Origin: Natronobiforma cellulositropha
GTDB taxonomy: Archaea > Halobacteriota > Halobacteria > Halobacteriales > Natrialbaceae
Assembly: GCF_025629245.1 (NCBI RefSeq)
Contig: NZ_JANZXN010000004.1
Coordinates: 1-52,856, forward strand
DNA: 52,856 nucleotides
Reading direction: 5' to 3'
Shown here: piece after piece, positions 22,755-26,320 of the stretch
Position numbering within the stretch: the first letter of the stretch is position 1
How the letters are laid out: the number at the start of each line of letters is the position of its first letter
Position numbers and translations under genes: made by a program
The notes under the pieces: generated by a model
What the model saw: the letters and a program-made list of their open reading frames with translations, nothing else
Database searches by the model: none
What the model was told of the DNA's origin: nothing

Positions 22755-23297
22755 ATGCACGACGAACGCGAGGTAACCGTCCTCCGTCTCGGTCACCGCC
22801 CCGGCCGCGACGAGCGGATGACGACCCACGTCGGCCTGACCGCACGCGCCCTCGGCGCCGAGGGCGTGATCTTCCCCGCGAACGCCACCCAGTCGCTCGA
22901 GACCGTCGCCGACATCACCGAGCGCTTCGGCGGGCCGTTCGACGTCGAGTTGACCGAGTCGCCGCGCGCGGTCGTCAGAAACTGGGAGGGAAAGATCGTC
23001 CACCTGACGATGTACGGCGAGCGGATCCAGGACGTCGAAGCCGAGGTTCGCGAGGCCCACCGCCAAGCGCCGCTGCTGGTCGTCGTCGGTGCGGAGAAAG
23101 TCCCCTTCGACGTCTACGAGGCCGCCGACTGGAACGTCGGCGTGACGAACCAGCCCCACTCGGAGGTCGCCGGTCTCGCGGTGTTTCTGGATCGGCTGTT
23201 CGAGGGACGCGAACTCGAGCGCGAGTGGGTCGACGCCGACCGCCGGGTGATCCCCCAGGAGACGGGCAAGCGCGTCGAGCCGACAGACGAGGAGTGA
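22755..23297 (+). CDS. tRNA (cytidine-56-2'-O)-methyltransferase (aTrm56)
   Basis: A 180-residue SPOUT-class methyltransferase that methylates the ribose of C56 in the T-loop of archaeal tRNAs using SAM. Family sequences are VLRLGHRPGRDERMTTHVGLTARALGA at the N-terminus, LTMYGERIQDV, LVVVGAEKVPFDVYEAADWNVGVTNQPHSEVAGLAVFLDRLF. The last segment contains the knot that binds SAM. Length matches the short form. It has its own upstream region after the DUF7344-like gene. Confidence 0.93.
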   Translation: MHDEREVTVLRLGHRPGRDERMTTHVGLTARALGAEGVIFPANATQSLETVADITERFGGPFDVELTESPRAVVRNWEGKIVHLTMYGERIQDVEAEVREAHRQAPLLVVVGAEKVPFDVYEAADWNVGVTNQPHSEVAGLAVFLDRLFEGRELEREWVDADRRVIPQETGKRVEPTDEE

Positions 23298-23956: not shown

Positions 23957-24127
23957 TCAGTCGTGTCGCCGAAGGTCTCGCGCCTCCTGCTGCGTGAGAT
24001 AACAGCCACAGGAGGCGACGATGGTGTCGGGACCAGTCGCGGTCACCCCCACGACGACGCTCTCACAGTGGGGACAGCGCGGCGGGTTCCACCCCTCGCC
24101 ACCCCACCGGCCGAGGTCCCCGCTCAT
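23957..24127 (-). CDS. Small zinc-ribbon-like protein (56 residues)
   Basis: The frame reads MSGDLGRWGGEGWNPP, then CPHCES, then VTATGPDTIVASCGCYL, ending QQEARDLRRHD. Two paired cysteine motifs (CPHC and CGC) about 20 residues apart suggest a zinc knuckle, as in the many haloarchaeal zinc-finger microproteins. Third-position base use is coding-like. The start is ATG 24127, overlapping the stop of a low-quality upstream frame (ATGA). Function unknown; DNA/RNA or protein binding is possible. Confidence 0.65.
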   Translation of the reverse strand: MSGDLGRWGGEGWNPPRCPHCESVVVGVTATGPDTIVASCGCYLTQQEARDLRRHD

Positions 24128-24288
24128 CGACGCCTCACCGTCTGTGGCGCTCGAGTTGGTGTGACACGTACTCGAGTGGGTGTGGAGCGTGCTCGAGTGC
24201 GAGCGTATCCACTCCGAGAATCGGCGTTTCGCGGGCTGTACAGTGCGTTTGCGAGCCTTTTAAGGTCGCGTGGTTGGTACTGAGTCAT
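24124..24288 (-). CDS. Possible 54-codon upstream frame before the zinc protein
   Basis: The frame starts MTQYQPRDLKRLANALYSPR and becomes Arg/Thr-rich. Its stop overlaps the zinc-protein start (ATGA) and its ATG sits at the base of a strong hairpin. Codon third positions are not GC-biased, unlike real genes here, so it may be a leader frame or not translated at all. Confidence 0.2.
   Translation of the reverse strand: MTQYQPRDLKRLANALYSPRNADSRSGYARTRARSTPTRVRVTPTRAPQTVRRR
24145..24205. repeat. Three CTCGAGT repeats phased at 21 bp
   Basis: CTCGAGT occurs at 24150, 24171 and 24192, exactly 21 bp apart, inside imperfect 21-bp units (gcgCTCGAGTtggtgtg, gtaCTCGAGTgggtgtg, gtgCTCGAGTgcgagc). 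They lie 18-80 bp before the zinc-protein start. CTCGAG is common in this genome, so only the phasing is notable. Confidence 0.45.
24257..24264 (+). promoter_or_regulatory. TATA-like box facing the structured element
   Basis: CTTTTAAG at 24257-24264; about 26 bp downstream (24287) is the 5' base of the first hairpin of the structured region. A second AT-rich element on the other side (ACATATAATTTC, 24421-24432) is equally well placed for transcription on the minus strand from about 24400, so the direction is not settled. Confidence 0.35.
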
Positions 24289-24398
24289 GGCTTCAAACCC
24301 CGTGGTAGGGTTTATTGGAAGCCACGCCTCGGGTGGGTCTAGCACCCGGGGCACTTTCTGAGCGTGCCCCGACCGGCGTTCGGCGGGCGTCGCTTCCA
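24288..24398. ncRNA. Structured RNA region with mutually exclusive stems
   Basis: Three strong hairpins are present: TGGCTTC+AAACCC with GGGTTT+GAAGCCA (24288-24324), CGGGTG/CACCCG (24330-24348) and GGGCAC/GTGCCC (24349-24369). An alternative stem pairs TGGAAGC (24316-24322) with GCTTCCA (24392-24398) and uses the same bases as the 3' arm of the first hairpin, so the two cannot coexist. Read on the minus strand it would be a leader of the zinc-protein gene; read on plus, a free ncRNA. No family recognised. The remaining 24400-24525 holds only AT-rich promoter-like sequence. Confidence 0.4.
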
Positions 24399-24525
24399 GC
24401 CCAGAGTTTCACGGATAGATACATATAATTTCTGGAAATGGGCGTCGGTGATACGGAGCCGTCCACACCAGGTACACCCGATTCGACGAGGAACTCGAGC
24501 GTTCAGCGGACTCTACAGCAGCGCA

Positions 24526-25020: not shown

Positions 25021-26320
25021 ATGGCATCCTCAGATCCTTCGGATCTGATGTGCTGTGCAAGACTACGTCTTGCAAACACCGTCCGTGGTAGCAGGGGGGA
25101 CGTACTCCCCACTCACGTTCAGCGTCCCGCGATTCAGCGCAACGTCTACGGGTGCGCCTCCGTCGGCTGCGTTTTGCCTCCGACGGAGATACCGGAAACC
25201 GATGTTCTTCGCCGCGTTGTAATCCGCGTGGTTCTGGTACCCGCATTTCAGGCACTCGAACTGCTCGCCGTCACGGTTGTCCTCATGAGTACAGCCACAC
25301 GTCGAACAGCGTTGGGACGTGTGGTTCGGCGGGACTTGCACGGCTTCGACGCCATACTCTGCCGCCTTGTACTCGACGTATTGGAACAACCGACGGAACG
25401 CCCACACGTGTTGCCACGTTGCTTGCGGGATGTTCTCGCGGATATGCGTTAGGTCCTCGAAGACGATGTGCGAACAGCCGTATTCGACGGCTTCCTCGAT
25501 GAGTTCGTTCGCCACGCCATGAAGGTATATCTCGAAGCGTCCGTATTCCTTCCGACCAACGCCTTCGATAGCTTCGTGGGCTGCTCGCGTCCCGGTCTGT
25601 TGAAGCGAGCCACGGCGCTTCTCGTACTCCCGACGCCAATGGTTGAACTCATCGGCGGACCAAAACGTGCCGGTGGACGAGACGGCAATGTTGTTCACCC
25701 CCAGGTCCACACCGAGGACTGTTCTGTGCTCGGTGTCGGGTTCGGGATCGCCGGCTTCGACCTTCCGCATCGACGCATGAAGGAACCACTCGCCGTCTCG
25801 ACGCTGTAGGGTCGCCATGCGGAACTCGTAGTCCTCGTCTTCGAGGTACGTCCGTGGATGGCGCTCAGGGTCGTCGGGAAGGATGTAGGCGCACTCAACG
25901 CGCCCGTTGACGGTCGAAAGCGAAACGTGGTCACGGGAGAACGTCGCGCTTCGCTTGTCGTAGACCGCGCTATCGGCGGAGAAGTAGGGCTGCGACGTTC
26001 GTTCACCGCGCTTCAGTCGTGCGACACCGCTCTTGACGGCTTCGACCGCTCGGCGGACTCCTTTCTGAACGAGGTTCGCGGTAAGGTCGGTTTCGTCCCG
26101 CAGTTGGTCGTACAAGGCACGTTCGGCTTTGGCCTTCGAGGTAACGTGGTATCCGTCGTCACCATGCCAACACCATTCGCTCGCGGTGTTCGCACAGTGT
26201 TTGAATTGCTCGACCGTCTCGCGGAGGGACGAATCGGCGTCCTGAGCCACGTCGAGCTTGATTACGGCGGTACGACGTTTCACATAACTCGGCGGTGTTA
26301 CTTAAATATATGGGGGTGGG
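25021..26320 (-). mobile_element. IS1341-type (tnpB-only) IS200/IS605 element
   Basis: The element contains one intact tnpB and no tnpA. Its right end on the minus strand has a 7-bp hairpin (CAGATCC/GGATCTG, 25031-25047) followed by TGAGGATGCC (25023-25032), the same layout as the element fragment at 1-104. The left boundary is uncertain; the TATA box at 26301-26312 must lie within it, and the true end could be as far as about 26465. Sequence 24955-25020 (with a GACCCTCAACGAGCGAGG-type segment on the minus strand) may be part of the element or an older insertion. TnpB proteins are RNA-guided nucleases using an omegaRNA from this 3' end. Confidence 0.8.
25063..26283 (-). CDS. tnpB: RNA-guided endonuclease TnpB (IS1341-type OrfB)
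   Basis: A 406-residue, apparently intact TnpB. The RuvC residues are D193 in LGVDLGVNN, E276 in IVFEDLTHIREN and D354 in NHADYNAAKN. The zinc ribbon is C326/C329 and C344/C347 (CSTCG, CLKCG). The N-terminal helix-turn-helix/WED region (KLDVAQDADSSLRETVEQF) is present. The start is GTG 26283 with a TATA box 20-30 bp upstream (CTTAAATATATG on the plus strand, 26301-26312). Known biology: cleaves DNA next to a transposon-associated motif guided by omegaRNA and helps element persistence. No transposase TnpA partner is here, so mobility needs one in trans. Confidence 0.95.
   Translation of the reverse strand: MKRRTAVIKLDVAQDADSSLRETVEQFKHCANTASEWCWHGDDGYHVTSKAKAERALYDQLRDETDLTANLVQKGVRRAVEAVKSGVARLKRGERTSQPYFSADSAVYDKRSATFSRDHVSLSTVNGRVECAYILPDDPERHPRTYLEDEDYEFRMATLQRRDGEWFLHASMRKVEAGDPEPDTEHRTVLGVDLGVNNIAVSSTGTFWSADEFNHWRREYEKRRGSLQQTGTRAAHEAIEGVGRKEYGRFEIYLHGVANELIEEAVEYGCSHIVFEDLTHIRENIPQATWQHVWAFRRLFQYVEYKAAEYGVEAVQVPPNHTSQRCSTCGCTHEDNRDGEQFECLKCGYQNHADYNAAKNIGFRYLRRRQNAADGGAPVDVALNRGTLNVSGEYVPPATTDGVCKT

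Follow-up and report, generated by a model that had tools for sequence, protein, structure and literature searches.

A candidate translational RNA switch preceding small zinc-binding protein genes in haloarchaea

Background

Translational riboswitches, such as the adenine riboswitch add, carry an expression platform that masks the start site of translation. The fluoride riboswitch (crcB), presumed to act on translation, was in 2021 the only experimentally determined natural riboswitch of archaea (PMC8241225), and structured leaders have been described as untypical of haloarchaea (PMC4983044). In this study, we analysed a window of 52,856 nucleotides from the haloarchaeon Natronobiforma cellulositropha (Natrialbaceae; GCF_025629245.1, contig NZ_JANZXN010000004.1, positions 1-52,856), in which a structured leader precedes a short open reading frame (ORF1) and the gene of a small cysteine-rich protein.

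Like riboswitches of the add type, this leader has a 5' domain closed by a stem, P1, whose 3' strand can alternatively pair beside the start codon; unlike them, it would mask the bases abutting the AUG rather than a Shine-Dalgarno sequence, carries an extra hairpin inside the coding region, has the P1 state as its computed default, lacks an Rfam match and is known by sequence rather than through a ligand. From the fluoride riboswitch it differs in the genes that it precedes, and neither the element of the window nor eight relatives matched any Rfam 15 family, riboswitch families included, at gathering or permissive thresholds. The literature consulted contained no description of the leader, and it is a member of no described RNA family tested. 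With the S15-Halobacteria ribosomal leader RF03143 it shares the nature of a structured cis-regulatory leader in Halobacteria, but it is a different RNA (RF03143 was found separately, at locus L006) and the gene downstream is not ribosomal. Overlapping ATGA gene pairs have been found experimentally to be coupled by termination and reinitiation in Haloferax volcanii (PMC6728339); ORF1 and the zinc protein share the ATGA overlap, whereas here the upstream frame shows no protein-level conservation and follows a putative switch RNA. The encoded protein resembles the haloarchaeal zinc-finger micro-proteins HVO_0758 and HVO_2753 (PMC10716476) in its small size and paired Cys motifs, but belongs to a CxxC...CxC family with 29 paralogous units in the genome. 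By analogy, the leader may work like a translational riboswitch or a protein-responsive leader, membership of the riboswitches being a claim that would need a ligand.

Results

Architecture of the locus

The original prediction had placed at this locus three hairpins and a long-range alternative stem, read on the minus strand upstream of a zinc protein; every structural statement checks out on that strand, and we judge the direction to be right. From 24438 to 24124, the order is promoter, structured leader, ORF1 and 56-residue CxxC...CxC protein, with the following parts:

24422..24438, minus strand: promoter TTTCCAGAAATTATATG, a BRE-like stretch plus TATA box, near-invariant among the copies of this genome
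24422-24430, minus strand: TATA box, part of the promoter
24386..24398, minus strand: P1 5' strand TGGAAGCGACGCC, covarying with the P1 3' strand; predicted 5' end of the transcript
24348..24370, minus strand: P2 hairpin GGGGCAC...GTGCCCC with a conserved GAAA-like loop; 95% of cells paired, 5 of 6 pairs doubly changed
24330..24348, minus strand: P3 hairpin CGGGTG...CACCCG; 99.5% of cells paired, 3 of 5 pairs doubly changed order-wide
24316..24328, minus strand: P1 3' strand, the switch strand, GGCGTGGCTTCCA, in diverged lineages complementary to both of its partners, P1 5' strand and start-proximal strand
24295..24313, minus strand: P4, a small hairpin between switch strand and start codon, its stem varying in paired fashion
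24289..24294, minus strand: start-proximal strand GAAGCC, which competes with P1 for the switch strand, judged by pairing score against re-paired controls
24124..24288, minus strand: ORF1, a leader frame of 54 codons (ATG at 24288), its stop overlapping the zinc-protein start
24251..24269, minus strand: P5 hairpin within ORF1, GCGACC-TTAAAA-GG(C)TCGC, a covarying hairpin in relatives
23957..24127, minus strand: 56-residue CPxC...CGC protein, probably translationally coupled

The long stem P1 thus joins 24386-24398 to 24316-24328, and the competing pairing of GGCTTC with GAAGCC (24289-24294) immediately adjoins the ORF1 ATG. None of 100 dinucleotide shuffles folds as well as the 309-nt minus strand (z -4.7). 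Among copies the P4 stem occurs as CCC/GGG, CTC/GAG or ACC/GGT, with GNRA or UUCG loops, as read off the alignment rather than counted statistically. A tRNA/tmRNA scan returned none.

The surroundings hold several further features. A TnpB/IS605 OrfB-like gene with a Cas12f1-like TNB domain (25063-26283, minus strand) lies upstream of the leader unit, and an aTrm56 tRNA ribose 2'-O-methyltransferase gene (Pfam E 4e-49) at 22755-23297 on the plus strand. Parts of the segment 23717-23910, which has GTTTAGTT and AACTAAAC at its borders and a GC-rich palindrome at its core, recur near two other leader copies (L045, L050); it is apparently a further dispersed repeat, separate from the leader.

Family size and distribution

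A DNA search found many dispersed copies in this genome and in other genera, up to 88% identical and some of them on megaplasmids, the similarity setting in shortly before the promoter and ceasing close to the end of the zinc gene. A covariance model (R1) recovered 29 copies in this genome, all with E <= 1.4e-22, values that are rough owing to a shortened calibration, and matched 89 of 125 genomes of the family, some with at least 25 copies. A wider model (R2) detected the leader in 272 of the 392 genomes sampled from the order and in 76 of 95 genera; of 295 genomes sampled across the phylum, 34 had matches, every one of them in the same order. Carriers include Natrinema, Natrialba, Halostagnicola, Halopiger, Halovivax, Natronorubrum, Natronoglomus and Natrarchaeobius, and, for a version preceding SWIM zinc-finger genes, Haladaptatus and Halalkalicoccus. 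Phages and viral contigs gave no match. At one locus (L128, G020:C1:1568500-1577500), three copies lie within about 3.3 kb, which suggests local tandem duplication, and no third gene shared between them is evident. Nor was a recurrent neighbour gene seen in annotated megaplasmids or between tandem copies, apart from an SprT-like gene after some SWIM copies.

Covariation of the fold

In a MAFFT alignment of 53 mostly Natrialbaceae-type copies (A2), drawn like the other alignments (A4, A6) from related copies, 35 cells were doubly changed against 15 after shuffling. In A4, 86 sequences spanning many families and fitted, as was A6, to a model that contains P1, P2, P3 and P5 and leaves out the competing helix, 90% of cells pair, both sides have changed in 25 of 30 pairs, and doubly changed cells number 299 against 70 in shuffles (score 0.381 against 0.135). 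None of 500 shuffles reached the observed score, and sliding the partners destroyed the signal (score <=0.072). The leader thus has a conserved structure with compensatory changes and lies between promoter and start codon, as is characteristic of cis-regulatory structured RNA leaders. With 29 copies in the genome and covariation across the order, its structure is not a product of chance.

Three strands changing together

The 5' partner (24386-24398), the switch strand (24316-24328) and the start-touching strand (24289-24294) co-vary across lineages. The three strands read GGAAGCC / GGCTTCC / GAAGCC-AUG in the window, GGAAGACC / GGTCTTCC / GAAGACC-AUG in the Haladaptatus type, and GAGAAC.CC / GGGTTCTC / AAACCC-AUG in a further one; additional combinations of switch and start-proximal strand are GGGTTCC with GAACCC-AUG, GGCTGTCTC with CAGCC-AUG, GGCCTTCTC with AGAAGGC-AUG, and GCTTCCGTA with TACGGAAGC-AUG. 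After each cluster of related sequences had been cut to one member, the pairing of switch and start-proximal strands scored 14.5 in 30 clusters, against 11.5 +/- 0.45 for re-paired controls, of which none in 2000 was as good; in 26 clusters including 16 extra loci it scored 14.8 against 11.3 +/- 0.6 (0 of 5000 re-pairings). Among the extra loci alone, which form only six clusters, 47 of 5000 re-pairings reached the observed value. The strength of the competing helix varies, because full GAAGCC is kept in 23 of the 53 first-set copies and most of the others retain only AGCC or GCC. The original prediction had held the two stems to be mutually exclusive and had named covariation as one test; both stems do covary, in the three-strand pattern expected of exclusive pairings, and these strands would form the mutually exclusive pairing of a riboswitch expression platform.

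Promoter, ORF1 and coupling

In 49 of the 50 copies with a recognised TATA motif, this motif precedes P1 by 30-32 nt, and the same distance recurs in 56 of 66 named loci. Such a TATA-to-start spacing is usual for archaeal promoters, so that the constant distance predicts a transcript 5' end at P1. TATA-like boxes had been noted on both sides of the element, and it is the minus-strand box, with its conserved spacing to P1, that stands. The plus-strand box CCTTTTAAGG (~24256-24265), considered as a promoter, coincides with the loop region of P5, and nothing supports it as one. P5 itself accounts for that sequence: in 18 of 24 clusters, a covarying hairpin begins between +18 and +21 relative to the start codon, with stems fully changed, A-rich loops (ATAAAC, TTAAAC, TTGAAC, TTGAAA) and a mean stem score of 12.6 against 6.5 +/- 0.8 in shuffles.

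The overlap of the ORF1 stop with the zinc-protein start, already noted for this locus (ATGA at 24124-24127), is a general feature. ORF1 ends in TGA in 52 of 53 copies, nearly always after A (42) or G, so that a start codon overlaps the stop; the resulting ATGA or GTGA is present in nearly all of the 53 copies and in 53 of 66 named loci, is kept regardless of an ORF1 length of 28-159, and opens the zinc frame in 39 of 53 copies. As judged by comparison of the copies, ORF1 and the zinc protein thus have the overlapping stop and start of a putative translationally coupled pair. In the zinc core of 20 copies, third-position substitutions dominate (2307 vs 497 and 490), whereas ORF1 codons 1-22 have no third-position excess (580 vs 411 and 693); this pattern points to purifying selection on the zinc protein as a protein, and not on ORF1. 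ORF1 has the look of a translational-coupling device that brings ribosomes as far as the ATGA. A single frameshifted protein made of ORF1 and the zinc domain was considered and rejected, since the overlap frame is kept, the length varies and ORF1 is without protein-level selection.

Zinc proteins and other downstream genes

In 34 homologues of the 56-residue protein, C18, P19, C21, C40, G41 and C42 are invariant, which gives two conserved paired-Cys knuckles, and the Cys pattern is what suggests zinc binding. The protein had no match above cut-off in Pfam/NCBIfam, and its AlphaFold model (pLDDT 79) matched no PDB fold with E <= 0.001. The overlap frame encodes a CPxC...CGC protein in most copies, and in others a different CxxC...CxxC protein or one with an additional domain. 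In haloarchaea of other families, the genes directly after the leader encode SWIM zinc-finger proteins, other small Cys-rich proteins, an integrase or a PadR-like regulator; judged by their sequences, small zinc-binding proteins usually dominate downstream without being exclusive.

Several loci deserve separate mention. Haladaptatus megaplasmids (L125, L126, L280) carry up to 32 leader plus SWIM zinc-finger matches per record, and a gene with an SprT-like domain follows a SWIM copy in H. halobius and in Halalkalicoccus. In Halostagnicola (L146, L153, L190), the coupled protein has an extra N-terminal domain (VVDIVRTLE...DPEALARL...) before its CxxC...CxC ribbon, which we take to resemble HalOD1. 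At L113 (G234), the first ORF of the leader continues in frame into a tyrosine recombinase/integrase. At L277 (G014), a putative PadR-like winged-helix protein, judged by its sequence, follows the same leader, and the regulon would therefore not be limited to zinc proteins.

Discussion

We propose, with a probability of about 0.72, that the leader is a cis-acting RNA switch controlling translation initiation, and it probably turns the translation of small zinc-binding proteins on and off. In the mechanism that we infer, the transcript would begin at the first bases of P1. In one state, presumably the ON state, P1 would close a domain that contains P2 and P3 and would leave free the nucleotides ahead of the ORF1 AUG; in the other, the 3' strand of P1 would quit P1 and pair immediately upstream of the AUG, so that the start would be masked. 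Ribosomes translating ORF1 would reinitiate in vivo at the overlapping ATGA and produce the zinc-binding protein, and in other haloarchaea the switch would act directly before a SWIM or other small-protein gene. P5 probably assists in placing the ribosome on an mRNA whose translation does not depend on a Shine-Dalgarno sequence.

Computed energies bear on the direction of switching. For the window, the conformers have -54.6 kcal/mol in the P1 state, -46.6 in the start-masked state and -38.7 with neither helix, and the P1, start-free state is the more stable one in 80 of 84 copies by a mean of 7.6 kcal/mol, as calculated ligand-free. The masked state can therefore matter only if something counteracts P1. 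Left without ligand, the RNA is probably start-free by default, P1 forming first during transcription, and in this model masking would become possible through destabilisation of P1 by some factor or through loss of the 5' end. Alternatively, a factor might stabilise P1 where the calculation is too generous to it, so that the switch may run in either direction.

As to what drives the switch, one possibility, less likely than not, is a new riboswitch class native to haloarchaea, in which an aptamer-like P1-P2-P3 domain would sense a small molecule or ion, move the switch strand between P1 and a start-abutting helix and, with a ribosome-positioning hairpin at about +19, control dozens of small zinc-binding proteins per genome; zinc or another metal as candidate ligand would suit the regulon. 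A bound protein, be it the encoded zinc protein, a ribosomal or another RNA-binding protein, could drive the same switch in place of a small molecule or ion, a serious contender that nevertheless falls short of even odds. P3 is nearly invariant and the loops of P2 and P5 are conserved, as protein sites can be, and haloarchaeal leaders that bind proteins exist (S15-Halobacteria RF03143, PMC7247131). On the other hand, the leader precedes proteins as unrelated as CxxC-CxC ribbons, SWIM, PadR-like proteins and integrase, which makes autoregulation by each product unlikely; a shared trans factor may be at work instead. It is unlikely that the fold is static, with P1 and the hairpins stabilising the 5' end or holding the start open and the start-proximal match having no regulatory role: the computed minimum does favour P1 in nearly every copy, but at least six sequence types show the start-proximal strand changing in step with the switch strand, which a static fold does not require.

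The remaining readings deny a translational switch in cis altogether. The dispersal of the 29 copies and the occurrence of megaplasmid copies might suggest a MITE-like mobile element whose stems are transposition ends with no role in expression; we regard this as very unlikely, given the compensatory changes, the constant TATA spacing, the ORF overlap and the selection on the encoded protein, and the copies cease to resemble each other at the promoter and close to the stop codon of the zinc gene rather than at sharp inverted repeats, about 20 compared copies having neither sharp ends nor flanks in common. That the true product is a trans-acting small RNA or a plus-strand RNA, as the compactness of the leader and the TATA-like sequence on the plus-strand side might hint, is highly improbable, since that sequence is the P5 loop, the model scores 19.5 bits on the plus strand against 129.1 on the minus strand, and the element runs on into an ORF in nearly all copies read. 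Attenuators typically contain competing hairpins, and the original prediction had left room for an attenuator; we give next to no credence to attenuation through an intrinsic terminator, because a T5 or T3NT3 run before the start codon occurs in 0 of 102 leaders, which favours a translational switch. The earlier observation is thus confirmed and its reading as a switch-like leader supported, except that the leader is no one-off but belongs to a large RNA family.

The RNA described here, which Rfam lacks, occurs in about 70% of the genomes sampled from the order, with up to about 30 copies in each, and its triple-strand covariation makes a switching mechanism directly testable. It also suggests a means of gating start codons that work independently of a Shine-Dalgarno sequence, and would give a regulon to many uncharacterised small zinc proteins of haloarchaea.
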